From positions 1 to 20,018 of IMG/VR virus record IMGVR_UViG_3300001679_000080: a DNA stretch of 20,018 bases, one strand, 5' to 3'. This DNA comes from a virus. Made by a program: the position numbers and the translations under genes. This document shows, piece after piece, positions 1-20,018 of this stretch; the stretch's first letter is position 1, and each line of letters starts with the position of its first letter. The notes beneath the pieces are model-generated. The model was not told the origin of the DNA and did not search any database. It saw only the letters and a list, made by a program, of their open reading frames with translations.

Positions 1-3000
1 TTTTTATAAGCATTCGTTTCGGCAGGATATATTCTCTCCGTATAATCTGTAATCACTGTGAGGTTACTGCCCGTAACATATTCGAACACCGTATTGAGAG
101 CATTGTTGTAGAGGTTGGGTACCTGAACATTAAGGCGATTATTTAAGCCCTGATTCGAAAAGTGATCCAGTAGATTACCATATGAAATATTAAGAGAAAT
201 ATTGTTAGTTATATTGGGCTCTTCAGTATTATCCTCTAGGCAAACCATGGTCGGACGATATCGGCTGCTCACGGGTTGTTCGGTATAATCCACAAATGTA
301 TTTGCCTGCTTGCCGAGGACATATTGGTATGCCCGGCCGGGCGGCCCTTGTGGAATAAGGGGAGGTGCCAATATCGTGCCGATCTTATTGGCCTCACGAA
401 GCTTCGAGGCGACCTTTGATTCCCCGGTACGGATTTGTTTCCATGTTGGCCAACCGTATGGGCCATGGCGATTGTTTAAGAGAATATTGAGTCCGTCCGC
501 GCTATTGGGGCTGAAGCGTGATGGGACAACGCCGCTCGCGGTGCCGTTGATAGTGGGGGTAGTAGCTTCCTGGTTTAGGACTAAGCTACTATCTCCAGGT
601 GGGAAATCTCCGCTAAACTGATCAAAACGATACCAGGCAATAAAGTCATCAGGATCGATCGAGGGCGGATGAAGATTAATCGGACGTCCATCATTGTAAA
701 GAAGAATAGCATTCGCTGCACTCAAATTATCACTCCAAATAGCAACATCTGTTAAATATCCCTTAAAATAGTAGGAGCTAAACATCCCGGGATTGGTGGC
801 ATAACCAATTCTGCCCGGGTTGGTGGCGATGGCGTCGGCATTAGTTAGTTCACTAACGGCTGGGGAATCCGTAACATCAATACCATCAATATAAATCTTC
901 ATTGCAGAAGCTGTGCCGGACCCTCCGGGGTTACTCCCATCGTAGGTGACCGTTACATGATACCATTTTTCGGTGTCAATGGTAGTGGTTGATTTAACAA
1001 CCCCATCCGTGGTGCCGGATCCACCCTTTCTTTGAAACCTTATAGTCATGGTAGCTGTGTCAATCCACACTACTATTTGCCCTGTCAAGTTCCCGGCGGC
1101 GCCACCAAATGTAATAAGAGGGATGAAGGATCCCCCAGTAACTGCCTCATGAGTGTTAAACCACATACTAATGGTGAACGCAGCGACTCCGGCGGGGACA
1201 CCGATCAAGTTATTCCAGACCGTCGCGAGGCCGAGGGTGACCTGGTTGCCGAGACCGCTGAACTTCCCGGAATATGTTCCTACATCTAGAGGCGAGTATT
1301 CATTAGCATACTGAAGGTGTGCGGACTCATCAATACTATCAATAACCAAGCGACCGGCTTGCCCGACAAAATTCTGAAGGTATGGTGGGTTAGCCGGTCC
1401 GGCGAGAGTGCGGTAATATGAGTTAACGGCGCCCGTCGCCAACTGGCTCAGAGAGGACGCTGAGACACACGAGGCTGCGTCCAAACCGTAGATGGTTGTC
1501 CCAGGTAGCATCGAGCCCGTAATCCACGCATATTGCTGTTCTGAGCGCGGGATCTGGTGCTGGACGAATAGGTTATCGTAGACAACTCCCTGTGTATACC
1601 CTGCGGAAGAGCTGAGAATCGTTGCCTTCGCGTTTCTGTTGGTCTTATGCCATGAAGGCTGCGTAACATAAGTAAGCTCCGGAACAGTACCGTACGCGGC
1701 GTCTGAGCCGAAGGGTCCGCAGTGGAGGCTGGCACGTTGATCTAGGCCGCGGTTCTTGTCGATTTGGTCAACAACGCGAATGGTGTTTCGGATGCTGGGA
1801 TCAATGGAGGCAGATCCGGACATACCATAGTCGATGATCGAAAGGTTGTGATATGGGTTGGCGTTGTAGACCGACAGTTCTTCGTGGGCTGGGTCCATAT
1901 AGCCGCGCGACATGACTTCATAGCCGCTGCCAGCATAGCGGTTAACAATGACTGTCTGATTTGAGGCAGATCCTGTGCGGGCAGGAAGGGCGTAGTTAAG
2001 AGCACCACCGGGGTTGGGGCTGGGGTCACTGGTGGTGGACGCGAAAAGACTCGGGAATTGGTCTTGTGTGAGGGGCGACGGAGAAACACTCTTAATCGAG
2101 CCGGCAGGAAAATTGCTAGCGTCGAGATTATCATTTCCTGTGAGATCTTCGATAACGGTGATGGTATCGTCGTCCAGATTGCCCATGGGGTAATATACTA
2201 AGGTATTTCCGGCAAAACCGGTTTCAAGAGGATTGGCGCGCTCCTTTTCGTTGTAGAGAATCTCGACTTCGGCTGACGTCAGCTCTTTGTCATAGACTGC
2301 AACATCACAGATGTAGCCGTCGAACGGAGTAGTGGCGGTAAAGCCGGCGCCGACTTTGAGAATGTCTGCTGCTGCCGTGAAGCCGCCGACGTCTGAGAGC
2401 GCTCCTGCGTTACCTCCGTCGCCGCGGTCGATTCCATTGATATAAATGTCTGGTAGTGTGGGCGTAACCCAACCCGGAAGGTTCGGTGCCATCCCAGCAT
2501 AGGTTGCCACTATATGGTACCATCGTCCGGTGGACATTGTGAACTCCCCGAGCGTAGTTTTGTAGGTGAGTCCGCCTAGGCGTGCACGAAGTCCATTGGG
2601 GGTGCCCTTTAATTGAAGGTCGCGGCCGCGCCAGTTGTCGACGTTACCAACGCCGAAGATTAGGTCGCCACCTAGCCAAGTATTGACATAAATCCAAGCA
2701 GAAAAACTATAGGGTTTGACACCCCCAGCAGACGACGACCCGATAAGGTTATTCCAATCAACGTTTGTATAGGTACTAGACTTTGCGCTCGTGCTGGATT
2801 TCTGGTCGAAAAGATAGGACTTTCCTGCAATCGGCGTAAAAGTTGTCTCGTAGGTAAGTGGGAATCTTCCTCTTGTTGCCAAGGTCTCGGGATAAGGAGC
2901 AAAATCGAAAGACTGGTCGTTAAAGAAGGGGTCATTGAGTTCACGGCCGCAAGTTTGTACCACTTGATAGTTTTTCTCATAATTACCAATGATTGTCGAT

Positions 3001-6000
3001 CCAGTGCGCATTTGGATATTACGGATATTGACGGGGCGCTTTGCAGTCTCGTCACGGAAACGTTGTGCGACCGGGGTGCGAGACAACCAACCTGATTCTA
3101 TGGGGGCGGCGGACGAAGTGTAATAATTTGGAGGTACTATAGCTAGCGAGCCCAGGTCAGTTGCGCCCGAATGTTCCCCTAGTACCAGGCGGAAGCCCTC
3201 GGCCCGTGTTTGAGCTGTATCTAAAACGGGGCCAGAATTTAGGTTCGTATGACGATAGTGGCGGCCGCCTACATATTTTTCAGTAAAAGGTCCTTGTAGA
3301 GGAATATCGGTGTCGAACACAAAATCGTGGTGCAGGTTGGTGATATCCACGTTAGATTTATAGGACTCACTAATTTCTGCGCGATATGTAGAATTTACCG
3401 TACTTTTGTATAGACTGAACGGGGTGAGCTTGTTCCCGTTGCCTTTAAGATACAGAGACTCCGGATTATCTCTATTAATACCCGGATTTATTCCAAACCC
3501 TAGACGCTGCTTGTAAACAGGATAAAACTCATCAGTGGTATCCAACAGTAGCTCAACATCCTTGTCGGTCGACACCATAATATTCATGGCTTCTCCACTG
3601 GGGGTCGCGGTCGGACCATATGGTTGTGTTGCTTGGAATGTAAAGTTAACATCTTTGTTCTGATGTTGGCCGACGCCACCTAGGACACGAGTACCGGACA
3701 TTGAAAATCGATAAGGAGACGCCAGGGTTCGCTTTGTTTGTTCTTTAATATTCTGTAAAAGAACCGCGCGCGAAGTGTTTACTGCAGTTACTGTTGCAAT
3801 GGTGGGATTATTTCTTTCCGCGCGGTTGCGCCACCAGAGGTGGTTCTTCTTTTGATCTTTATCCGGAGGTGCGTGATCATACTTCCATTTTTGTAGAAGG
3901 GCGCGGGGGCTTCGGCCTATTGCGCGGGCTGTTGGAGCGTGGACCGGATAAAATCCAACACCTTGCAGATCGTCGTCGGGCGACGAAATAGCATCTCCGT
4001 AATCTACATTACTCCCGATTGAGGCCGTGAAGTCGTGGGCCGGTTCTTCGAGGAACGGAAATACGCTGCGATATTTACTTCTTTCTAGGGTCGTACTCTC
4101 GATCGTGGTACGAATATTCTGTGCGAAGTCTGCGCTGGCAGGGACGAGCTGGCCCAGCATATAAGACAAGGAGGAGTCAAACCACTTATAAAATTCATAA
4201 AACTTATCAAAATCAATCTCTTCATTGGCGACATTCTCAAAGAACTTTCGGCGCAAGGAAGCAAGATTTTTATACTCACTCCGGAATCGATTTACTGGTT
4301 CACCGACAAGGGTGTTAAACGCCTGCAGAGTACCAAACGAATTAACCATGGCTTCCGAAACTACCTTGGACATACTCTTTTCAAAAACATAAAAGTAGTT
4401 TATAGGTCGAGAATCTATTTTGAAAACTTGCTGTTCGTCGGCGTCCAAAACTGTTACCATTTCAGATGGGGCGATAACCTCTAACTCGTTAAGACGGGAT
4501 ACAACTACAAATTCTTTTTTCACTGCATCCGTAGAACTAGCAGCGAAGCCGCTGCCTTCGGCCGTGATTTGTTTACCTGTTAGATTTCCGATGAATCCAT
4601 ATCGGCTCGCCGCAAGGGCTGCTGACCCGGATGATTCGTCGGCAATACTAAATTTACCTAAAGCATTCGAGCCTGTGTTCTCACTAAACTCCCAATTAAA
4701 TGCAAGTGTATCTAATTCTGATATCTCGCCGGTGTCCGCGGCGGTCTTGTTCCACGGTGATGCGTATTGGGTTGGCCGGCTGGGACCATAATTTTCGGTG
4801 TCGAGGGCGTGAGACTTAAGAGCTGTATCCTCGACATAATCTATCCAGAATCGACAGGAATTAACTCGAACATCAGATGTCTGGTATATCGTACTGCCGG
4901 TGACATTTTCTTTATGCGCGCCGAGGTACACGCGTCGGGAGCCGGTCATAAATGACGATGGCGGGCTAGCGACAGTTCCCGAAACAGTAAAAGTATTAAT
5001 TACCTCGCCGGAGCGAGTCTGAACACCGTGGAGTTCCACGACATAATCACCAGTTGTGGCGCCAGAAACAAAATTGGCCAGAGGGAATCGCTCAGGGCGA
5101 ATTCTGGTGGCCAGTGTCCAGCTGGTGTCAGTATATACGTCTTCATATAGTGGCGATGTTAGATATGGAACATATCCTCCAGCAGTTCCCGTCAGCATAA
5201 AGCGTACATTGGGGGAATTAATCTCGTCGCGGACCGAAAAGACCTGGAAGTTGGTCGACCGGTCGTCCCCGGCTGCGGCGTTTCCCCAGCCAGTATCTGT
5301 CTGGTTTGGCCGCGCATGGTGGATTCCAAACAATGATGAGGTTATGGCATTTGTATCGAAATATCCATATGCATCAGACTCGTTGGGCTTTTGAGGGAAA
5401 AATATATTTGTTTCCAAGGTAACAGCGTAACCGCCAAGAAGCCCGGAGTCGGCGGGGATATATCCGGTAGACTCTGGGTTTACTGAGGACGAATAGGAAT
5501 AGACCGTTGCTTCTGTATTTATTGGATGATTGAAATTGATTGTCCTGTCATTAACAAGAATAGTACGCCGGTTCTCACGGAATTCATAATTTGTATTGCG
5601 AGCATACATACTAAGCTTTATCAACTCATCATCAAGACCAAAACATCGAATTAGGTTCCTGAATGCTTTTTCCGTACCCTTAGCTTTATAAATATAGGAT
5701 AGATTATTATAGATGTTCTGGTAAATTAGGTTTTTAACCTCACTCAGAGATTTTTCATAAAGCTTATCCTCACTGCGGTCAGCTAGTTGCTCGAATAAAT
5801 CCGCATCAACAAAGATATCGGGTGATATAAATCCTTGTGAATTTAATAACTTATTAGAATAAGGGAATGGCTTGTTGCTGCCGCTTATATACTCGATGTC
5901 TTTAAGTTTGTTATGCTCCGCAATTTGCATGTGCAGAGTATCAAAATAACTAGAAATAATCTGCGTAAGGTTCTTAAGCTGGTGCTGGCCGGCGTCATCA

Positions 6001-7445
6001 TCTTCTGTGATCCATCCAGGAATAGATTTATAGATAGAGGTAGAATTACTATCATCGTAGGAAGACCCGGATGTTTCTAATTCAGATTTAAGAGTCACCA
6101 CAGCTGGATGGAAAGAATAGATTATAGGATCTTTAAACTCTTTGATAGCTGCCTTTGAAAGTACAATTGCTGAGCCAGTGTTTCTGGACGTAGCCGAATA
6201 TCCTGTCCAGTCTCCGTTGGACACACGGCCGGAATAATCTAAGACAGTGCTATCGGTTGTTGCAACTCCAGTAATACCTTCATTGAATTTAAAATATACT
6301 CCTAGATTGGTATTGACTGTTTCTTGGTTATCGGTATATGGCTTCGGATCCGAGTTGGTTCCTCCTCCGACCTGTGTGAACCAGTAGCGGCCAATGTCAC
6401 GGGAAGTACGGCGCGTTTTCCAATAACGGAATTCGTCGAGGGACCCAGAGAGTTTTCCGGCCGGTCCGAAGTAGCTGGCGCCGATGTTGCGGGAGGTTAT
6501 AAGAGCACCCACATATGCGCGGAGGGCCCCAGTTACTTCATTAATTCCAGTTGAACCCAGAGTTGTTTCTGTGTTGAGGGTGCCGTCAACATATAATTTT
6601 GTTGCGATACCTGCGGATGCGGATGCGAAAGAAAGGGCATAATGATGCCATTCCCCATCTGCGATGGTTATAGATGACCCTACAGCTGTGTTCTCAACTC
6701 CAGTGGCGCCAGACATCACTGTAAGAAGGAATGGGGAGGTGCCATCTGCAGTCGAATCTAGAGCAATCATCAGACGTCCATAGAAATTAGGAGCAGGCGA
6801 CTCCTTCACCGCGACGCCGTTCCACATGTCGAAGATTACTTCTTTAGTAGTAAGGAGAGGAAGCCACTCATCCTTTTTCAACCAAAACTCAACAGTAACT
6901 CCGTTACCAGCCAAATCATATTTTAAGTTACTTTCGCGGTTTGCATTAGGTTCATAATAATTGGATCCTGTAAAAGCATTTGAGTAGGGGCTCATTCCAT
7001 CAGGATTCGGATGTGGGCCACCCTTCAGATAAATATACTCCTCCTTACTCGGAAGGCCCCACCCATCCTGTATGGTAGCCTGGGTACCCCACCCTTCCGC
7101 AGAGAGCAGTGCATACCCATTAGTCCGAGGATATTTGTTGTTTAGAAGGTGTAAGTCAATATAAGTGGAATCATTTTCCCACTCTAGCCTCTCTTTGAGC
7201 GATCCGTCATAAGGGTATGTATCATGGACGCGTTCGATGGATTGACCATAATACTCCTCAGCAGAGCCGTAGCGGGCGAACGTAGAAGGGTCATTAAAAT
7301 CAACATTAGGAATAAATCGTTTCTCGTTGATGATATCTTGTGTGTGATATCCAACGGACTCAACTTCCGCGCCGATTTCTTTCGCTGATTTGTTTGCGAT
7401 CGCGCTGGCGCGGGACGCTCCATCAAATAAATCTTTAAAACTCAT
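1..7445 (-). CDS. Giant LamG/ConA-like baseplate protein with gpI/gp7-like segment (3' end outside window)
   Basis: The frame from the ATG at 7443-7445 has no stop down to base 1, giving at least 2481 residues with the C-terminus missing. Three LamG (concanavalin A-like) jelly-roll domains can be seen at residues ~175-355, ~1570-1740 and ~2075-2255. Each has a W-[HY]-H core strand (WHHYALSF, WYHIVATY, WYHVTVTY), a following [LI]Y[VI][DN]G strand, and a closing D-x-[FV]-x-[YI] strand. A fourth, degenerate ConA-like stretch may lie at ~670-885. Between the first two clear domains, residues ~562-640 contain YKAKGTEKAFRNLIRCFG (KGT at 589-591), which resembles the KGT segment of phage tail protein I (P2 gpI, equivalent to T4 gp7). 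The position downstream of gp6 fits a wedge protein. Residues ~1048-1128 form a helical charged segment. Inferred role: baseplate wedge plus host-surface binding. An AAGGT abuts the ATG with no spacer, which is unusual. The gene starts 7 bases after the 513-residue gene ends. Confidence 0.9.
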   Translation of the reverse strand, partial: MSFKDLFDGASRASAIANKSAKEIGAEVESVGYHTQDIINEKRFIPNVDFNDPSTFARYGSAEEYYGQSIERVHDTYPYDGSLKERLEWENDSTYIDLHLLNNKYPRTNGYALLSAEGWGTQATIQDGWGLPSKEEYIYLKGGPHPNPDGMSPYSNAFTGSNYYEPNANRESNLKYDLAGNGVTVEFWLKKDEWLPLLTTKEVIFDMWNGVAVKESPAPNFYGRLMIALDSTADGTSPFLLTVMSGATGVENTAVGSSITIADGEWHHYALSFASASAGIATKLYVDGTLNTETTLGSTGINEVTGALRAYVGALITSRNIGASYFGPAGKLSGSLDEFRYWKTRRTSRDIGRYWFTQVGGGTNSDPKPYTDNQETVNTNLGVYFKFNEGITGVATTDSTVLDYSGRVSNGDWTGYSATSRNTGSAIVLSKAAIKEFKDPIIYSFHPAVVTLKSELETSGSSYDDSNSTSIYKSIPGWITEDDDAGQHQLKNLTQIISSYFDTLHMQIAEHNKLKDIEYISGSNKPFPYSNKLLNSQGFISPDIFVDADLFEQLADRSEDKLYEKSLSEVKNLIYQNIYNNLSYIYKAKGTEKAFRNLIRCFGLDDELIKLSMYARNTNYEFRENRRTILVNDRTINFNHPINTEATVYSYSSSVNPESTGYIPADSGLLGGYAVTLETNIFFPQKPNESDAYGYFDTNAITSSLFGIHHARPNQTDTGWGNAAAGDDRSTNFQVFSVRDEINSPNVRFMLTGTAGGYVPYLTSPLYEDVYTDTSWTLATRIRPERFPLANFVSGATTGDYVVELHGVQTRSGEVINTFTVSGTVASPPSSFMTGSRRVYLGAHKENVTGSTIYQTSDVRVNSCRFWIDYVEDTALKSHALDTENYGPSRPTQYASPWNKTAADTGEISELDTLAFNWEFSENTGSNALGKFSIADESSGSAALAASRYGFIGNLTGKQITAEGSGFAASSTDAVKKEFVVVSRLNELEVIAPSEMVTVLDADEQQVFKIDSRPINYFYVFEKSMSKVVSEAMVNSFGTLQAFNTLVGEPVNRFRSEYKNLASLRRKFFENVANEEIDFDKFYEFYKWFDSSLSYMLGQLVPASADFAQNIRTTIESTTLERSKYRSVFPFLEEPAHDFTASIGSNVDYGDAISSPDDDLQGVGFYPVHAPTARAIGRSPRALLQKWKYDHAPPDKDQKKNHLWWRNRAERNNPTIATVTAVNTSRAVLLQNIKEQTKRTLASPYRFSMSGTRVLGGVGQHQNKDVNFTFQATQPYGPTATPSGEAMNIMVSTDKDVELLLDTTDEFYPVYKQRLGFGINPGINRDNPESLYLKGNGNKLTPFSLYKSTVNSTYRAEISESYKSNVDITNLHHDFVFDTDIPLQGPFTEKYVGGRHYRHTNLNSGPVLDTAQTRAEGFRLVLGEHSGATDLGSLAIVPPNYYTSSAAPIESGWLSRTPVAQRFRDETAKRPVNIRNIQMRTGSTIIGNYEKNYQVVQTCGRELNDPFFNDQSFDFAPYPETLATRGRFPLTYETTFTPIAGKSYLFDQKSSTSAKSSTYTNVDWNNLIGSSSAGGVKPYSFSAWIYVNTWLGGDLIFGVGNVDNWRGRDLQLKGTPNGLRARLGGLTYKTTLGEFTMSTGRWYHIVATYAGMAPNLPGWVTPTLPDIYINGIDRGDGGNAGALSDVGGFTAAADILKVGAGFTATTPFDGYICDVAVYDKELTSAEVEILYNEKERANPLETGFAGNTLVYYPMGNLDDDTITVIEDLTGNDNLDASNFPAGSIKSVSPSPLTQDQFPSLFASTTSDPSPNPGGALNYALPARTGSASNQTVIVNRYAGSGYEVMSRGYMDPAHEELSVYNANPYHNLSIIDYGMSGSASIDPSIRNTIRVVDQIDKNRGLDQRASLHCGPFGSDAAYGTVPELTYVTQPSWHKTNRNAKATILSSSAGYTQGVVYDNLFVQHQIPRSEQQYAWITGSMLPGTTIYGLDAASCVSASSLSQLATGAVNSYYRTLAGPANPPYLQNFVGQAGRLVIDSIDESAHLQYANEYSPLDVGTYSGKFSGLGNQVTLGLATVWNNLIGVPAGVAAFTISMWFNTHEAVTGGSFIPLITFGGAAGNLTGQIVVWIDTATMTIRFQRKGGSGTTDGVVKSTTTIDTEKWYHVTVTYDGSNPGGSGTASAMKIYIDGIDVTDSPAVSELTNADAIATNPGRIGYATNPGMFSSYYFKGYLTDVAIWSDNLSAANAILLYNDGRPINLHPPSIDPDDFIAWYRFDQFSGDFPPGDSSLVLNQEATTPTINGTASGVVPSRFSPNSADGLNILLNNRHGPYGWPTWKQIRTGESKVASKLREANKIGTILAPPLIPQGPPGRAYQYVLGKQANTFVDYTEQPVSSRYRPTMVCLEDNTEEPNITNNISLNISYGNLLDHFSNQGLNNRLNVQVPNLYNNALNTVFEYVTGSNLTVITDYTERIYPAETNAYK

Positions 7446-7452
7446 ACCTTAA

Positions 7453-8994
7453 TTATTCTTCAACTCTAAATTTGAACCTCTGAGGTTGTTCTTGCCAGTC
7501 TCCTATACTATCATTATAATAAGATAATTTAATCTCATACATATAATCGCGGTCGAGCAAGGACATATCTAAGTCGAAGTAGTTCCCCTCTTTGTCGTAC
7601 GAAAGGCATGTGCTATAGTCCGACCCAGTACCATAAGAAATGGCCTGCAGGTTATCAATGACGCGAGAAATTGAGTATGATGCACTAGGGACTACTTCTG
7701 TAGGATTGTTCGTAGTGGCAACCGTATATAAATTGGGACTCCAATTCTTGGCGCGCACAAAAAACCTGAACCGGGACGTTTCTTTTTGCGAATATACCTT
7801 TTTAAGATTTTTGCATGATGTTACTCTATTGAAAGTAGGAGCATAGTCGTATGTCGGAAGGAGATCGGGATAAAATGATCCTGTAAAGAATTCTACACCC
7901 CCCGAATGCCAAACATCATGAATTGCCAGTAGGCGTGTCGACGCTGCGGTTAGCGCCACCGAGCATGAATAAATTCCCGAACTAACATAGCTAGCCGTAG
8001 TATTAAGGTTGGCTGCGGCCGCAGTGCCGCCGCCGTAAGAAATAGCCAGCTTAGATCCCGTGGGGGCCCCATTGGAACCAGAATAGAAAGACACCAATAA
8101 CTTATTTGTAGCAACGGCTGGGATGTTCTTCAGGCCCCCGCGTACGTAATTATAAAAATGTAGTCTATTCAAATTGTCTGAGGCTGGGGCGACAGAACTA
8201 GAATAATAAAAGTTCTCTCGGTCATCCATCACACGAGAGTCCCAGCGCGCCTCGATGTGGGGCCGTTTAAAGAAATATTCTGTAGATCTAGCAAAAAATT
8301 TCTTCAAGTAATATGATTGTCTTGCGCCGGCGACGTTCTGTAGTACCGACCCGGAGTTTGATCCCAAAGAGGACGAAAAATACGCTTCCTCGCTTCCCGT
8401 AAGTCTTACGCCGAATCCATAATTTTTTATAACGCCGGGTGCAATAGGCGTAGAGCGGAATTTAATCCATTCCTCAACAATAGAAGAAACATCGACTTCT
8501 AAGTCTTCATACCCCCCGGGGAAGGTGGCTGCATAATTGGAGGCGGTTAAATAGTCACCCCCTACTGTCGCCCAAGAAGTGGTTGAACTTGCCGACATCC
8601 AGTTGGCATAACCTAAATCTTTGTATTCATCCATATCAAGGCCGGCGCCCTCGGTCCAGGATTGAGATACCGGAGCAACAATCAACGTAAAGTCCTGTGG
8701 GAGCGTAAATGGATGTTCCGCATTGTACATTTTAAGGTAAAAAGAAACACTTCCCGCTGCAGGAATGCGGGCGGCAGCACGATCATTAGCGATTGCATCA
8801 ACAGAAAACTGTATAAGCGCTCGAGAAAGCTCCGGTGATTGTCCGTTTGAGCCGGACTCTTGTCCGTATATTGAAAAAACGGCCATGGAGTCAGCGTATC
8901 CCATGTTTGAGCCTGTTCCCCGCGTGACCAGATTTGCCTCAAAGGCATTCGTAATAGTAGTGTCTGCACTCGCAGTGTAACGTAAGATAGCCAT
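7453..8994 (-). CDS. Baseplate/tail-fibre-associated protein with DNRLRE-like N-terminal domain
   Basis: 513 residues. Residues ~1-245 show the strand order of a DNRLRE-type beta domain: ADTTITNAF near the start, SRALIQFSVDAI (~57-68), SVSFYLKMYNAEH (~84-96), then a VSQSWTEG strand, then DVSSIVEEW, then NYGFGVRL. This pattern is known from bacterial surface and phage tail adhesin-like proteins. The remainder (~245-513) is beta-rich with Ser, Tyr and aromatic residues, and I do not recognise it. No signal peptide or membrane segment is visible. The start overlaps the gp6 stop by one base (TAATG), so translation is probably coupled. Its place between gp6 and the giant LamG protein suggests a structural baseplate or fibre-attachment part. 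I cannot assign a T4 gene equivalent; gp8-like or fibre-connector roles are only guesses. Gene certainty is high; the domain call is moderate. Confidence 0.85.
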   Translation of the reverse strand: MAILRYTASADTTITNAFEANLVTRGTGSNMGYADSMAVFSIYGQESGSNGQSPELSRALIQFSVDAIANDRAAARIPAAGSVSFYLKMYNAEHPFTLPQDFTLIVAPVSQSWTEGAGLDMDEYKDLGYANWMSASSTTSWATVGGDYLTASNYAATFPGGYEDLEVDVSSIVEEWIKFRSTPIAPGVIKNYGFGVRLTGSEEAYFSSSLGSNSGSVLQNVAGARQSYYLKKFFARSTEYFFKRPHIEARWDSRVMDDRENFYYSSSVAPASDNLNRLHFYNYVRGGLKNIPAVATNKLLVSFYSGSNGAPTGSKLAISYGGGTAAAANLNTTASYVSSGIYSCSVALTAASTRLLAIHDVWHSGGVEFFTGSFYPDLLPTYDYAPTFNRVTSCKNLKKVYSQKETSRFRFFVRAKNWSPNLYTVATTNNPTEVVPSASYSISRVIDNLQAISYGTGSDYSTCLSYDKEGNYFDLDMSLLDRDYMYEIKLSYYNDSIGDWQEQPQRFKFRVEE

Positions 8995-10787
8995 TATTTA
9001 ACAGATCCTTTTATATCAAGGTTGGGATATTTTAATTCAAATATTACATTCGGCTCCGCGAGGATGAGGCGGCCGTCTGCGGATAACGCGGCATCAAAAT
9101 TATAATTAGATTGAGAATAGAGGCCGCCTGATTTGAGATGAATTTCAACCGAAGTCGTATCTACGACGCCTTCGACTTTATTCAAAGCAGTATAAATATC
9201 TGAAATAGTAATCGGCTCCCCGATATCGTACGCTTGTGAAAAGAGTACTCCCAGTTTGTTGGTACATTTATTGATGACCGTAAATCTATTTGAGTTCATA
9301 TCCATAAGAACCTCATATTTTACTGCAAAATTAACAACCCGGGCATCAAGTATATCTATAGTATCACTTAACATTTTATAATTTAAAAGCCAATTCTTAA
9401 GATTATTCTTGAGCGTAGTGTTTGCCGGCGTGAGTTTACCTGCATTTGTTTCCGAGATAACATATATATTAATGTTTTGCTTGAACTCGTCGAGATCTTT
9501 AATAACGGCCGCTCTTTTAAGCATCCCATACTTCCCGGGCATCGCGTAAGTGAGTGCTTTATAATCTTCAGCAGTTACTGCTCTATTCTGGGTTGAAAAG
9601 TAGCTAAAGGCGCGCTGTTTAATTTCGTCTGCAGAAGGCATTGCTACACTGCCCACAAATTTCTCTTCATTGGAGACCTCTAAAGAGGCTTGAACTGAGC
9701 TTCTCTGGGATGGATTCAAACTGCCCTGATTAGCGAACTTAAAGGACGTCGAGGCTGCCTGTGTGATAGTATTTACTGCTGCATTGACATCGCTGGTAGT
9801 ATTGAATCGATATTGGACTCTAAGTGTAGTATTAGAAGGCCCTATACCAAACTTGTCCGTACTAATAATTTTAGTCGGATCAAAATTTAACTCTGTGGAG
9901 TAAGTTCGGCCGGAAAGGTCTAATACAACTTCTGTCGGATCAGTTACAGCATCCGTAAGCATTGTAGAATCAGAACCATATCCAAATTGTAAAAAGGTCT
10001 GACCGTCAATAGTCTCTACTGCGAAGCGGCGAGCGACGGGCACTGCTTTCAATATATTGGGGACTGATGCGCGCGTAGAAGTAGTATTTCGAATAGCTTT
10101 ATAGACAATATTCTGTGACAGATTGTCAACTTCAAAATATTCATTACCTTCTTTGTCCGTGACCTTGATAACATTACTTATATTGTTTACTCCTAGCGGA
10201 ACTCTTCGGAATCTTTGGAATTCTCCGATCTCTAAATCTTCGATTGTGCCTCTTCCGGAGACTGCCAGGCCGGTCATGCGAATCACATAAGTAGTCGGAT
10301 TGCCAGAGGCGGCGTCTGCTTGACCCACTACTGTTTGGGCCGCAATAGATTTAAAGTCGACGTCGTTAAGAAGTGTGTAAAAGCCGCCGCCGGTGGAACT
10401 AAAAGTTGAGCCGGCTTGGAGGACCGGGATCAATGTGCTATCGGGTCCCAAGCCGGGCGAGGAGGCCGGCACTTCAATATAAAAAGATAGGCGGCCGTAT
10501 GAAGAAGGACTAGTTTTTAATTTATATCCAAGCTGGCGGGAGAGTCGAATTACATTTGTATATTCAACGGCGCTGTCCAAAAAGGTCTCGTTGCTCTGGT
10601 AATCGATATAAAAGGAAAGAATATCTCCGACATAAGAGACAGTATCCAACATCAGCGAACCGAAGGACGCTCTATTAAAATCTTTATAAGTGTCGGGGTA
10701 ATATCGCTTAGCAAAGTCTTCTAAATCTTTACGGATAGAAGCAAAATCTCTGCTTGTATAATCTATTGATACGTTTTTTTTAGACAT
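8994..10787 (-). CDS. 6: Baseplate wedge protein, T4 gp6 / P2 gpJ family
   Basis: 597 residues, close to the ~660 of T4 gp6. The N-terminus carries the family signature: IDYTSRDFASIRKDLEDFAK (~8-27), then YYPDTYKDFNRASFGSLMLD (~29-48), SYVGDILSFYIDYQSNETFL (~51-70) and a conserved LGYKLK (~86-91). The C-terminal half has the usual gp6-like helix-turn KQRAFSYFSTQNRAVTAEDY (~387-406) before the dimerisation region. In contractile tails this protein forms the continuous ring that joins the wedges around the hub, as a dimer with gp7/gpI. The start is the ATG at 10785-10787 with AGGAA at 10797-10801, nine bases away. It lies 26 bases after the gp25-like gene ends and overlaps the next gene by one base. 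This is one of the most secure calls in the window. Confidence 0.95.
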   Translation of the reverse strand: MSKKNVSIDYTSRDFASIRKDLEDFAKRYYPDTYKDFNRASFGSLMLDTVSYVGDILSFYIDYQSNETFLDSAVEYTNVIRLSRQLGYKLKTSPSSYGRLSFYIEVPASSPGLGPDSTLIPVLQAGSTFSSTGGGFYTLLNDVDFKSIAAQTVVGQADAASGNPTTYVIRMTGLAVSGRGTIEDLEIGEFQRFRRVPLGVNNISNVIKVTDKEGNEYFEVDNLSQNIVYKAIRNTTSTRASVPNILKAVPVARRFAVETIDGQTFLQFGYGSDSTMLTDAVTDPTEVVLDLSGRTYSTELNFDPTKIISTDKFGIGPSNTTLRVQYRFNTTSDVNAAVNTITQAASTSFKFANQGSLNPSQRSSVQASLEVSNEEKFVGSVAMPSADEIKQRAFSYFSTQNRAVTAEDYKALTYAMPGKYGMLKRAAVIKDLDEFKQNINIYVISETNAGKLTPANTTLKNNLKNWLLNYKMLSDTIDILDARVVNFAVKYEVLMDMNSNRFTVINKCTNKLGVLFSQAYDIGEPITISDIYTALNKVEGVVDTTSVEIHLKSGGLYSQSNYNFDAALSADGRLILAEPNVIFELKYPNLDIKGSVK

Positions 10788-10813
10788 TTAAATTCATTCC
10801 TGTTTTAATATAA

Positions 10814-11215
10814 CTAGTTTGCGTTATTATCAACCTCAATCTCAAGTGTTGATACAATTTGGAGAGGTATCACTCTAAAAGTTATCTTCATCTTTATAGT
10901 ATTTGGAAAAAGATCGGGATTATCCTCCGGGACCGTAAAGTCCACTTGTTGAATTTCTATAAACGGCAGATACCGCGCAGTTTGTTTTCTTACGGCCGTA
11001 TCAATGTCTACGTACAGAGACGATACTAATTGCTCGAACAGATAGTTTCTAAGTCCAACACCAAAATTTATATCCATCATCCTTTCACCAGGAGCGGTTA
11101 AAACAAGCATTTTTAAGTTTTGTCGTGCTAGTGAAAGATAATCAGTGATAAGATTATAGGGGCCAAAAACATCACTAATTACCAAAGGAAGCTGTACTGC
11201 GATTCCAGAAGCCAT
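10814..11215 (-). CDS. 25: Baseplate wedge protein, gp25-like (GPW_gp25 family)
   Basis: 133 residues, typical of T4 gp25 (132). Residues ~33-61 hold the family core: LKMLVLTAPGERMMDINFG followed by VGLRNYLFE. The PGER and DxxFGxGLR pattern is diagnostic of GPW_gp25 proteins (T4 gp25, P2 gpW). A second conserved part, ARYLPFIEIQQVDFTV (~80-95), precedes the final beta strands. In contractile tails this protein sits in the inner baseplate and initiates sheath polymerisation. The start is the ATG at 11213-11215 with the Shine-Dalgarno TGAGGT at 11223-11228, seven bases away. It lies 26 bases upstream of gp6, matching the common gp25-gp6 (W-J) gene pairing. No anomaly seen. Confidence 0.95.
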   Translation of the reverse strand: MASGIAVQLPLVISDVFGPYNLITDYLSLARQNLKMLVLTAPGERMMDINFGVGLRNYLFEQLVSSLYVDIDTAVRKQTARYLPFIEIQQVDFTVPEDNPDLFPNTIKMKITFRVIPLQIVSTLEIEVDNNAN

Positions 11216-16254: not shown

Positions 16255-17241
16255 TTAATTCGCCTTATTGTATAAACTTAAGATATATTTCTTGCTCTTG
16301 GCACCACCACCATTAGAAAGGTAATCGTTAATTACGCCGGCCGTATCTAGGGGCGCATCTAACATCTGTGGTACCAGACAATTAAGAGTTTCATTAACCG
16401 CACATTCCACGCCTGCCATCATTGTTCTTTTAAAGTCCGGAGCGCTTTCTGATCCATAGAAGGCGGTCATGTGTGTGTGCGTCTGGACTGCTCTGAAAAA
16501 GTCTTGATCATACTGTAGTTTGTTTTCTACAATTGTTGCCAGGTTAGTAATCATTTGTATGATGCCTTCTAGGCACTCTACAAGGTTTTCTCCCTTAACC
16601 ATAGATTGAAGGCCCTCGTCATCATTCATGGCAATTAGATTAATTCCATAACTCTTCTTGAGTGAATTGGAAAGTTCTCCTCCTTGGGAGTTAAAACTAT
16701 CAGTACGAGTGACGAGCTTTATATTCTCCCGGGCGATGAGGCGTACTGTGTCAGCCTTAAGCGCAACAGTGGATCGGGGAGCTTCAAAGGATGTATTGCC
16801 TACGGCGCCCTTTACCAAGCCAAAATAAGTGTCTACATCAGCCTTTTGTGAAATGTAGACCCGGGCCGAGTCGAGTTTAAAGTCGGGATTCACCACTGTT
16901 TCTTCATTCTTCTTGTTTCTCTTTTTGGCACACCAGCCCCTAGTGCCGGCAACTATATCAATCGCTGCGCAGTGAGACTGTCCTTTGCCGCCAAAGCCTG
17001 TGAATCGATTGGTGGTTCTATCTTTGCCGAAACGAATGGAAGCATTCCCCTTTTTAATAAGGCGCTCATTTGGAAGTATCATAAGATTGGGGGCGTCAAA
17101 CTGGTCCCCGTCTGCTGCAGCAATACCCAAGATGTCAGCCTCTGCCTCAGGAAGGGCAGCAATCTTTTTTTGCACTTCTTTCGGTAGATCTTTAATATCT
17201 ATGGCAGCTTTAGTTTTTACTCGTTTGCAATCATCACTCAT
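16255..17241 (-). CDS. Putative baseplate central spike protein (gp5 C-terminal-like)
   Basis: 328 residues. Residues ~56-100 (PNERLIKKGNASIRFGKDR to AAIDIVAGT) and ~124-210 (ARVYISQKADVDTYFG, then KADTVRLIARENIKLVTRT, then YGINLIAMNDDEGLQ) alternate short beta strands in the way of a triple-stranded beta-helix spike, as in T4 gp5 C-terminal or P2 gpV-like proteins. A helix (~218-250) follows, then THTHMTAFYGS with H255-x-H257. HxH motifs bind iron at the tip of P2 gpV and phi92 gp138, so a metal site is possible here, although the motif is not at the very C-terminus. The gene follows the hub lysozyme by 25 bases with a strong AAGAGGA seven bases before its ATG. Together these two genes would replace a single T4-type gp5. 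The spike role is an inference from fold style and context. Confidence 0.75.
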   Translation of the reverse strand: MSDDCKRVKTKAAIDIKDLPKEVQKKIAALPEAEADILGIAAADGDQFDAPNLMILPNERLIKKGNASIRFGKDRTTNRFTGFGGKGQSHCAAIDIVAGTRGWCAKKRNKKNEETVVNPDFKLDSARVYISQKADVDTYFGLVKGAVGNTSFEAPRSTVALKADTVRLIARENIKLVTRTDSFNSQGGELSNSLKKSYGINLIAMNDDEGLQSMVKGENLVECLEGIIQMITNLATIVENKLQYDQDFFRAVQTHTHMTAFYGSESAPDFKRTMMAGVECAVNETLNCLVPQMLDAPLDTAGVINDYLSNGGGAKSKKYILSLYNKAN

Positions 17242-17266: not shown

Positions 17267-18652
17267 CTATGCTAATAGATCTGTCAACCCGCGGGCGGAA
17301 AGGTCTTCCTTTGCGGCAACCACTTCATCATATATTTTCGTCACGATGCTCTTCTTGGCGTGGTTCTTACCGTCTTGCTCATAAGCAGACATGCCGCGCT
17401 CAAGCGGAATGCCTTTTGAAGTGTCGTCGTTGTACAGGGGGTATGCTTGCCCTTTCCTATTTTTATGTATTTCAGAGTACTGAATAGGTACGCCGGCCCA
17501 TTCGTATGATATCGATTGGGCTGCCTGGTCGGCTTCGTCGTGGTTCCCAGCAAAATACTGCCCTGTCCGACCCTGTTTAAATAACAAGTTTACCAACGCT
17601 ATCGCCTCTTGGTTATCAGGGGAATACATTTCTTTGTTCAATTCCTCGATCGTAATGCTCTCGTCGTTCTTAACGATCATGTTGATGACGCCTTCGAGAG
17701 TGGGGTGTGTCTGCTGATATTTTCCCGTAGCGAAGAGGATCGTGGATCCTGTTTTCTGTTTTTCTATTATCTCGCCAATAGTAACCTGAGTGTGATCTTT
17801 ACCGAAAACCTCTGTGATGCTTGTGAACGCGTAGGTTGTTCTGATTTTTCCCGAGGGAAGATCCGTGAAGATCTTGCGGTTTCCAATATCATAGTCTCCG
17901 CCCGATTCGGAGCCGGCTATAGTCTCCATAAGCTTCTGAAAAACCTTTTCCTCTGCTAACTTCTTGTAGCTCTCCCAGGTTATTTTTGGACCTTTCAGGC
18001 CGCGGGAAAGTTGGTCGGCTTGGGAGCGAAAGGTCCCCGAAGAAGAGTTCCCTCCGCCTCCGGTCGCAGTCCCTCGATTGTTCGAAAATTTAGCTTTTAA
18101 ACTCCCGGCACGGTTCAAACCTCTTAGTTCAATGACCTTTTTTCCAATTGCAATAATTTTGGGATTCTTTAACTTTTGCTGATTAGCAAAAATTACTTGT
18201 ACATATGTGCCGGCGGCGATGGCTCTCATGTTATCGTTGGCTGGAATACTAGCATCCAATATAGCGTTAGGAAGAGTCATAACCCGCTGCGCGTTAGTGA
18301 ATTCGCCGGCGGCTCCTCTATCACTAAAGTTGATGCAGCGCGGCTCTATTTCCGGTATATAGATCTTGTATATATAATATAGAACCAGATCTGGCGGGTC
18401 GCTTAAATATTCTATAAGTGCCTGGTTGCTCTGCAATGTGGGCGAGTTAGTGGCTATGGTTGCCATAATGACTCCATCATAAACGCTTTTGCCTTTTAAA
18501 ACATCGGGTGTATAATAATCCTCCAGGGCTTTAGATATTGCAGTCGTTGTAGAGAGGGTTTGCCGATTTCCGACCGGAGTCTTGTCGCTTATTGTCAGAT
18601 CATTAAACGCGCCATAAGTTTCAAAGATATCGTCTGGTTTTAATTCAGCCAT
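17267..18652 (-). CDS. 5: Baseplate hub protein with OB-fold-like domain and lambda-R-like lysozyme domain
   Basis: 461 residues. Residues ~88-176 (LVLYYIYKIYIPEIEP, then MTLPNAILDASIP, AAGTYVQVIFANQQ, NPKIIAIGKKV) look like the gp5-type OB-fold of baseplate hubs. A Gly/Ser-rich linker (~193-208) leads to a lysozyme domain (~236-400). This carries AGSESGG with candidate catalytic E249, ATGKYQ (308-313), NQEAIAL (347-353) and EWAGVP (384-389). The same order of motifs (E-x-x, GRYQ, QDAVAL, WASLP) occurs in the lambda R endolysin/transglycosylase. The inferred role is local peptidoglycan cleavage at the tail tip during DNA injection, like T4 gp5 but with a different lysozyme fold. The start at 18652 lies four bases after the SGNH stop and has no clear Shine-Dalgarno, so it is probably translationally coupled. 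A diverged second copy of its first ~125 residues lies inverted at 19578. Confidence 0.85.
   Translation of the reverse strand: MAELKPDDIFETYGAFNDLTISDKTPVGNRQTLSTTTAISKALEDYYTPDVLKGKSVYDGVIMATIATNSPTLQSNQALIEYLSDPPDLVLYYIYKIYIPEIEPRCINFSDRGAAGEFTNAQRVMTLPNAILDASIPANDNMRAIAAGTYVQVIFANQQKLKNPKIIAIGKKVIELRGLNRAGSLKAKFSNNRGTATGGGGNSSSGTFRSQADQLSRGLKGPKITWESYKKLAEEKVFQKLMETIAGSESGGDYDIGNRKIFTDLPSGKIRTTYAFTSITEVFGKDHTQVTIGEIIEKQKTGSTILFATGKYQQTHPTLEGVINMIVKNDESITIEELNKEMYSPDNQEAIALVNLLFKQGRTGQYFAGNHDEADQAAQSISYEWAGVPIQYSEIHKNRKGQAYPLYNDDTSKGIPLERGMSAYEQDGKNHAKKSIVTKIYDEVVAAKEDLSARGLTDLLA
18272..18344 (+). repeat. Internal copy of 73-base direct repeat
   Basis: This stretch is identical, base for base, to 19946-20018. 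Here it is antisense to codons ~103-127 of the hub lysozyme gene (around GEFTNAQRVMT). Its left end, AAGAGTCATAAC, has a reverse complement that resembles the same codons in the second hub copy. This offers a microhomology for the fold-back at 19946. Confidence 0.95.
18365..18505. repeat. Inverted near-identical block shared with 19725-19865
   Basis: The reverse complement of this stretch matches 19725-19865 over 141 bases with 5 mismatches, all clustered in a 10-base gap between an exact 58-base block (18448-18505) and an exact 73-base block (18365-18437). It covers hub residues 50-96 (DVLKGKSVYDG to YIYK). The flanks on both sides are far more diverged. Confidence 0.95.
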
Positions 18653-18656
18653 TTTG

Positions 18657-19433
18657 CTATGTTACAAATCCTGGCCAGCGCTTCACCCGCAGCATTTCGG
18701 CAAGCTTACGGTGGCCGGCGTGGGATGGATGGAGGCCGTCGCCGCTGGTCAGACCTTTTTTGAACCAATCGCGGGAACCAGGGATAATACGTCCTTCGGA
18801 GTAGGTCGTGTCGTCGTCGTCTGCGGGTGGAGGCCCTACGTTATTTGTGGCGGTCGCGAAGTTGCTCCACTCCAGATAATCAGTGATCAATCCTGAGTCC
18901 TTCCCGGCATTGCGCATCCAATCATTATAGTCGTTAGTATACCCCATAAATTCAACGCGCTCCGGAGCTGTCCAAGCTTCTTGGATGCTTTTATCCCCCA
19001 GCACCTTATCCTTCATGCGCCATCCGTACCAACCATGAAGGGTTACGACATATCTGTTTTCAATCTTCATTTCATCGCGAACGTACTCCAAGACTTGTTT
19101 CATACGCTTATATTGATCTTTCCTCATCCCGTTGGCGCCCCCAAACATTATCACCGAGTCATAATCTGCTGCTATTATACAGCCGGCCTCAACATTTGTT
19201 TTTAAATGGGCAAGTATAGATTTCTTGCCGCCGGCGAAGACCTGGCTGCCTTTTGCTATTCTGTCTAAGTCTAGATTCATGGAGCCCGCGTAGGTCGCAT
19301 CGCCGGCTGCGAAGGAGGCGCCTAAAGCCAGGACTCTCGGTGTCGCCGATTTTGTAGACAGGTGAAGATAACTCTCCTGTTGCTCAGAGGAGCCCCCACT
19401 TTTCTTAGACTTATATACCGGGCCCCCTTGCTG
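18657..19433 (-). CDS. SGNH/GDSL-family hydrolase, 5'-truncated at junction
   Basis: The frame is open from 19433 to the stop at 18657 (258 residues), bounded upstream by a TAG at 19434-19436. It contains no ATG, GTG or TTG before the internal ATG at 19280. That ATG (207 residues) cannot be the true start: the SGNH block I, LALGASFAAGD, with the nucleophile serine codon at 19314-19316, lies upstream of it. Block III is seen as MFGGANG and block V as DGLHPS with catalytic D and H at about 18738 and 18729. So all parts of the Ser-Asp/His site are present. The visible N-terminus (YKSKKSGGSSEQQE) looks like a linker, so this may be the C-terminal domain of a larger protein. SGNH enzymes deacylate carbohydrates and lipids; at a phage tail tip a deacetylase acting on surface glycans is likely. 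It lies four bases before the hub gene. Confidence 0.8.
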   Translation of the reverse strand, partial: QQGGPVYKSKKSGGSSEQQESYLHLSTKSATPRVLALGASFAAGDATYAGSMNLDLDRIAKGSQVFAGGKKSILAHLKTNVEAGCIIAADYDSVIMFGGANGMRKDQYKRMKQVLEYVRDEMKIENRYVVTLHGWYGWRMKDKVLGDKSIQEAWTAPERVEFMGYTNDYNDWMRNAGKDSGLITDYLEWSNFATATNNVGPPPADDDDTTYSEGRIIPGSRDWFKKGLTSGDGLHPSHAGHRKLAEMLRVKRWPGFVT

Positions 19434-19436
19434 CTA
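19409..19436. other. Head-to-head junction between two coding regions
   Basis: The minus-strand SGNH frame ends upstream at a TAG (19434-19436), and the plus-strand gene fragment to the right is closed upstream by a TAG at 19406-19408. Both frames lack a start codon here, so each has lost its 5' end within this short stretch. A GGGCCC palindrome (19420-19425) lies at the join and could be the switching microhomology. It looks like an inverted join, either artefactual or real. Confidence 0.75.
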
Positions 19437-19585
19437 AATTTGTCGAAAACTTGCAGCGCTCGAACGAACAAATGGTAAAACTAGCAGCTATTCTACAACG
19501 ACAGAAAACTTCAAGCGTCGGCCTTACATCTGATGATAAAGAACAGCTCTTTGATCTCTTAAACGAGGGTCAGGAAGATGTCTGA
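19427..19585 (+). pseudogene. C-terminal fragment of an unidentified gene upstream of second hub copy
   Basis: A plus-strand frame running from the junction to a TGA at 19583-19585 encodes about 52 residues: LAAKFVENLQRSNEQMVKLA, then AILQRQKTSSVG, then LTSDDKEQLFDLLNEGQEDV. It is helical and charged, with a coiled-coil look, and I recognise no family. It has no start of its own (the first ATG is internal, near 19472). Its stop overlaps the ATG of the second hub copy by eight bases, which is a normal operon arrangement. So this is probably the true 3' end of the gene that precedes that hub variant. It differs entirely from the SGNH protein that precedes the first hub gene. Confidence 0.6.
19565..19569 (+). 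promoter_or_regulatory. Ribosome binding site of second hub copy
   Basis: GAGGG lies eight bases before the ATG at 19578, inside the end of the upstream gene. It supports a functional start for this variant. Confidence 0.5.
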
Positions 19586-19724
19586 ACTCAAACCAGATGA
19601 TATATTCGAAACGTACGGCGCTTTTAATGACCTAACTATTGGGGATAATGATCCCATTGGCGATCGCCAAACTCTGAGCGCTACCCAGGCTCTTTCGGGT
19701 TGGCTAGAAAGCTTTTACACTCCT

Positions 19725-19865
19725 GATGTTTTAAAAGGCAAAAGCGTTTATGATGGAGTCATTATGGCAACCATAGCCACTACTTCTCCTATATTGCAGA
19801 GCAACCAGGCACTTATAGAATATTTAAGCGACCCGCCAGATCTGGTTCTATATTATATATACAAG
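19725..19865. repeat. Inverted near-identical block shared with 18365-18505
   Basis: This is the plus-strand partner of the 141-base block in the first hub gene, with exact matches of 58 (19725-19782) and 73 (19793-19865) bases. The left edge is abrupt: identity falls to about 62% immediately upstream. Confidence 0.95.
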
Positions 19866-19945
19866 GTCTATATACCGGAAGTAGAACCACGTTGTATTAG
19901 TTTTAGCGATCGCGAGGGTCCTGTCGGAGAGTTCACCAATGCTCA

Positions 19946-20018
19946 AAGAGTCATAACCCGCTGCGCGTTAGTGAATTCGCCGGCGGCTCCTCTATCACTA
20001 AAGTTGATGCAGCGCGGC
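19946..20018 (+). repeat. Terminal copy of 73-base direct repeat; fold-back junction
   Basis: Identical to 18272-18344 up to the last base of the window. The hub variant to the left runs in sense, while this part is antisense to the same codons of the first hub gene. The two flanks (about 19880-19950 and 19955-20018) therefore form an imperfect palindrome with almost no loop. Confidence 0.95.

Follow-up and report, generated by a model that had tools for sequence, protein, structure and literature searches.

Tandem tail-hub genes with a mosaic OB-fold block and a folded-back contig end in an IMG/VR virus record

Gene order and junctions at the contig end

The stretch analyzed in this study (hereafter, the window) is a complete linear IMG/VR record of 20,018 bp, and position 20018 is therefore the contig end. 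The same virus was present in a second IMG/VR record (3300001524_000214; L004), because this record was 100% identical to positions 95-10830 of the window (10736 bp); it stops before the hub region. The features near the contig end are listed in Table 1.

Table 1. Features of the hub locus and of the contig end in the window.
Feature	Positions	Strand	Basis or remark
Spike-like gene	16255-17241	-	Next gene after the hub genes in relatives (synteny); beta-helix-like repeats judged by eye only
hub2: OB-fold (about 18098-18652) and lysozyme-like C-terminus	17267-18652	-	Sequence and OB model comparisons
Lysozyme-like module of hub2	17318-18052	-	Residues about 201-445; near-identical to L006 at four-fold sites
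Counterpart of the mosaic block in hub2	18365-18505	-	Alignment with hub1
hub1 C-terminal part: SGNH/GDSL-like hydrolase and linker	18657-19419	-	L006 hub1 is a single OB+SGNH ORF; GAS, GGAN, and DGLHP motifs invariant
J1, inverted junction with 8-nt microhomology GGGCCCCC	19420-19427		Left, hub1 linker (-); right, gene X (+)
Gene X, 3' end	19428-19585	+	Gene X precedes hub1 in relatives; 96% aa identity to L006 715-864
hub1 N-terminal OB-fold part, residues 1 to about 126	19578-19945	+	Matched by an HMM built from 25 hub OB domains; orthologous to L006 hub1 (863-); inverted orientation
Putatively converted block in hub1, gene bases 148-288, residues 50-96	19725-19865	+	5/141 differences from hub2
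Putatively unconverted 10-base island	19783-19792	+	All 5 differences; alignment with hub2
J2, inverted junction with 12-nt microhomology AAGAGTCATAAC	19946-19957		12-mer present in the sense strand of hub1 and in the antisense strand of hub2
Antisense hub2 fragment at the contig end	19946-20018	+	Exact direct copy of 18272-18344

The native gene order was seen in L006 (IMGVR_UViG_3300010883_000797; 18.7 kb), which shows about 76% nucleotide identity to the window and is the sole close relative with both hubs. In this record, gene X, hub1 (OB-fold and SGNH), hub2 (OB-fold and lysozyme-like enzyme), and the spike gene follow one another on one strand. The gene X stop codon overlaps the hub1 ATG, and hub1 is a single ORF in which the OB N-terminus is joined to the SGNH part. 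Comparison with L006 thus assigns the plus-strand OB segment and the minus-strand SGNH part of the window to one gene, as its start and its end, respectively, and about 250-300 bp of hub1 (the end of the OB region and the linker) are missing between the two. The initial annotation had regarded the plus-strand copy as the N-terminus of a second hub-lysozyme; the order in L006 instead assigns it to hub1 with its SGNH enzyme, and only hub2 is lysozyme-like. As a hub copy, the plus-strand ORF holds up to about 19945-19957, whereas its final approximately 20 residues are antisense hub2 and not protein. L006 is a relative of the kind that the annotation had proposed to look for, because its complete hub1 carries the orthologous N-terminus.

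The final 600 bp of the contig are folded back via the two inverted junctions, neither of which the initial annotation had noted. In L006, the segments joined at J1 lie about 0.8 kb apart and those joined at J2 about 1.4 kb apart; that is, nearby segments (<2 kb) were joined in inverted orientation through 8 and 12 nt of complementarity. Among chimeras formed during DNA amplification, 85% are inverted, separations of <10 kb are favoured, and the complementarity reaches up to 21 bp (PMC1855051). The joins in the window resemble these chimeras of multiple displacement amplification in their inversion, in the distance between the segments (<10 kb), and in the short complementarity at the join; the published cases come from amplified DNA, whereas the match here is one of join sequences. 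The J1 sequence was found in no other contig of viral_contigs. The fold-back joins are most likely chimeras of amplification, library preparation, or assembly, and they lie near the end of the contig rather than at the edges of the mosaic. A contig-end fold-back can thus mimic an inverted second copy of a gene.

The mosaic block shared by the two hub genes

Subsequently, the plus-strand start of hub1 (from 19578) was aligned with the start of hub2 (from 18652, minus strand). The two sequences differed at 55 of the first 147 bases, and then at 5 of 141 bases (bases 148-288), all of which fell at bases 206-215, flanked by an exact run of 58 bases and one of 73 bases. Beyond the block, one mismatch and another 14-base run were observed before divergence resumed, with 10/42 differences over bases 289-330. 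The total length of the two runs was reached in none of 100000 shuffles of the hub1/hub2 differences that preserved codon position. The alignment therefore reproduced the 5 differences in one 10-base gap between two exact blocks, and the renewed divergence, that had been described before. The divergence pattern of the first 147 bases also stood, with 55 in place of about 56 differences, but these were not mostly silent: 29 of the 55 lay in synonymous codons and 26 in residue-changing codons. In the predicted OB domain, the block covers a strand (57-68), a helix (76-84), and a further strand (92-98). Residues 21-49, which had been proposed as a partner-specific interface, diverge between orthologs as well, and this proposal was not retained.

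The comparison with L006 separated the block from the preceding bases. Within bases 148-288, all 27 informative sites in the window and L006 grouped the paralogs of one genome and none grouped the orthologs. Over bases 1-147, 12 informative sites grouped the orthologs and 4 the paralogs, and the contrast with the block was significant (Fisher p=1e-7). At four-fold sites in the block, the window and L006 orthologs differed at 9/12 and 10/13 sites (19/25 together), whereas the paralogs within a genome differed at 2/18 sites in the window and 5/16 in L006. Constraint does not explain the block because its orthologs differ at 19/25 four-fold sites. Judged from these sites, the block is free to evolve between genomes and is homogenized within them.

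Further evidence was obtained from an independent two-hub genome, L098 (2412-5146, minus strand), which is the extended L040 locus. Its M23 hub and amidase hub have OB regions that are 69% identical and share a 53-nt stretch with one mismatch. This near-exact tract sits late in the OB region. None of 5000 codon shuffles reached the tract, and the same was true for the window pair (0/5000); in the same test, the paralog pairs of L086, L087, and L006 and the ortholog controls were not significant or weak. The L006 paralog pair alone contained no significant exact run, which suggests that the conversion in L006 is older or rests on site patterns. An exact 36-mer from the block was absent from every other viral contig in the viral_contigs search. 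Paralogs within a genome were closer than orthologs at neutral sites, with defined edges, and the pattern recurred in independent genomes, as site patterns in L006 and as a tract in L098. The mosaic block looks like the product of true gene conversion between tandem paralogs. Of the earlier reading, recombination or gene conversion between two hub alleles, the conversion is supported by the ortholog comparison; the genes involved, however, are not alleles but tandem paralogs whose enzymes differ.

Hub domains and enzymes in the window and its relatives

The hub OB domain was modeled as a five-stranded barrel (pLDDT 70); the full-length hub2 model was poor (pLDDT 46), and the OB domain model alone was usable. 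In Foldseek searches, the OB domain model matched S12-type OB folds in the PDB. Against BFVD, gp5 OB and hub-lysozyme models were matched with E values of about 1e-3 to 1e-2 and TM scores of about 0.3, and the best matches, which are unnamed, had E values of 6e-10 to 9e-9 and TM scores of 0.46-0.50. With modest scores, these results support at the level of fold a gp5-like OB-fold for the predicted hub N-terminus. The three best BFVD structural matches (A0A1B1IUR3, A0A1B1IUR4, and A0A1B1IUT8) carry accessions that are almost consecutive, are 440-472 aa long, and possibly represent a further multi-hub genome.

Neither hub1 nor hub2 matched a Pfam model above the cut-off; GDSL matched the SGNH part with an E value of 8e-4, below the curated cut-off. 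The blocks that define SGNH hydrolases (Ser, Gly, Asn, and His) were recognized by their motifs, which were invariant in four sequences. For hub2, a tblastn search found phage endolysin/lysozyme-like genes, and its relative L087b matched PHROG endolysin families. Sequence searches of the PDB with profiles of hub2, hub, lysozyme, and SGNH returned no convincing match, and the SGNH search of GTDB genomes gave no match. The family assignment of the two enzymes of the window is weak. The hub chain ends after the enzyme, with no C-terminal triple beta-helix on it, and the candidate spike is encoded by a gene of its own further downstream.

The lysozyme-like module of hub2 had a history of its own. 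It showed 94% DNA identity to L006 and differed at 3/89 four-fold sites, whereas the OB part of hub2 differed at 37/58; the four-fold divergence from L006 was 0.43-0.63 for the spike, gp6, gp25, the 1664-aa protein, and SGNH. The edges of the exchanged module lie in the Gly/Ser-rich linker and near the stop codon. Within the module, the nonsynonymous rate was close to the synonymous rate (dN/dS about 0.9). From the four-fold differences (3% versus 43-64% elsewhere), we conclude that the hub2 lysozyme module was swapped recently between phage lineages.

Direct searches of viral_contigs for close relatives of hub2 or of its N-terminus returned none or L006 only, and relatives were collected via the baseplate wedge protein instead of a hub query. 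In these relatives, the enzyme joined to the OB domain was of the M23 peptidase, amidase, muramidase, SLT, VanY, or DUF2272-like type; the matches to M23, Amidase_2, Muramidase, SLT, and VanY lay above cut-off. One hub chain (L048:1197-3209) combines a muramidase with an SGNH/GDSL domain as a fused two-enzyme version. Among the 43 related records searched, most of those bearing a hub had one; L006 and the L040 record had two, and L086 and L087 had three. In the latter arrays (L086:2915-6801 and L087:1262-5186), three hubs follow one another in tandem immediately before the spike gene, each with a different enzyme. As the array of L087 begins near the end of its contig, it could include more hubs further upstream.

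Between L086 and L087, the phage-lysozyme-like enzymes of the first hubs were 52% identical in amino acids and the SGNH domains of the last hubs 46%, but pairing of the OBs by orthologous enzyme was rejected in OB trees (AU p<0.0003). Furthermore, SGNH domains were 46-50% identical among L006, L086, and L087, whereas the OBs were 20-23% identical between L006 and L086/L087. These results indicate that the enzymes and the OBs have different histories. A single clade of the three L086 OBs was unsupported in the OB tree, in which the starred groups were L087 and the window pair only.

Explanations of the locus and comparison with known hubs

We consider it likely that the locus comprises two tandem hub genes, that short conversions between the OB regions made the mosaic, and that the inverted hub1 start and the antisense stub came from fold-backs at the contig end. 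The tandem baseplate-hub genes would be related in their OB-fold N-termini but encode different enzymes at the C-terminus, and short conversions between the OB-coding regions would keep parts of them alike (residues 50-96 here and other patches in relatives). A conversion that left a small unconverted island would give the sharp-edged mosaic. Fold-back at two sites of short complementarity would then produce the inverted hub1 N-terminus followed by the antisense hub2 stub, in chimeric molecules that arose in DNA amplification or library preparation and were assembled. The homogenization may persist since the subunits share one hub.

The mosaic could instead be an in vitro or assembly artefact, in which template switching placed hub2 sequence into the hub1 copy. 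Two further chimeric joins do occur in the molecule, at distances of about 80 and 300 bases from this region, and the block occurs in no independent sequence of the same species. This explanation is unlikely, as about four switches within 141 bases would be required to spare the 10-base hub1 island, and relatives show the same block alike within a genome (L006) or an independent tract (L098). Slightly less probable again is a real rearrangement, with the hub1 start inverted or duplicated in a subpopulation or a defective genome. The assembled contig contains the inverted arrangement, and quasi-palindromes are sites of replication slippage in vivo as well, but such a rearrangement would break hub1 with the loss of its OB end and linker, the last 73 bases of the contig repeat part of its own interior, and the arrangement is present in no relative.

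Different genomes might also come together through inverted joins where a contig ends, and the initial annotation had noted that a chimeric assembly of two co-occurring phages with different hub alleles would look similar. We regard such a join as very improbable and unneeded: both pieces are collinear with L006 in one genome at similar distances (nucleotide identities of 85% for gene X, 69% for the hub1 OB, 74% for SGNH, and 72% for the hub2 OB), and runs that match the hub2 of the contig itself exactly make up 131 of the 141 bases of the block, whereas the nearest relative is about 67% identical there. Strong selective constraint alone is scarcely credible; the block includes OB strands that may contact partners, but the ortholog differences at four-fold sites refute it.

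Tail hubs are usually regarded as homotrimers of one enzyme-bearing protein. The three tandem hubs with three different enzymes in two genomes suggest mixed-subunit hubs. It is conceivable, although by our estimate rather doubtful, that these marine myoviruses assemble two or three tandem OB-fold paralogs into a heterotrimeric tail hub, with several different envelope-cutting enzymes per tip. Hub paralogs with different enzymes would sit in one baseplate, conversion between the OB regions would preserve their fit to a common set of partners, and the enzymes would be exchanged by recombination at the linker. Alternatively, there may be two homotrimeric hub forms, or only one hub gene product may be used. 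Taken together, the tandem hubs, the homogenization of their OBs within genomes, and the exchange of their enzymes between genomes point to a puncturing tip that is modular and may contain mixed subunits.

Phage T4 has one hub gene, whereas some genomes here have two or three in tandem. As in T4 gp5, an N-terminal OB-fold is followed by a cell-wall enzyme and the baseplate wedge genes adjoin; the structural neighbours of the OB domain include the gp5 N-terminal OB and models named baseplate hub and tail lysozyme. The hubs differ from gp5 in that the enzyme varies among relatives, an SGNH hydrolase included, and that the spike is a separate gene. A precedent for several enzymes in one hub is the hub gp15 of the Anabaena myophage A-1(L), a homotrimer with endoglucanase and peptidase domains on one chain (PMC10966104). 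Both are tail hubs with more than one hydrolytic activity, but each enzyme here lies on its own tandem OB-fold paralog. In VgrG, the beta-helix is on the same chain. For mixed trimers with different C-terminal domains, type VI secretion provides a precedent, namely heterotrimeric spikes of the "evolved" VgrG proteins of V. cholerae, in which the C-terminal effector domain differs among the paralogous subunits (as cited in PMC8668125). These spikes resemble the proposed hub as a gp5/gp27-related trimer of paralogous subunits with differing C-terminal domains; they belong to a secretion system in which the requirement for mixed trimers was tested genetically, whereas the hubs here are known from genes.
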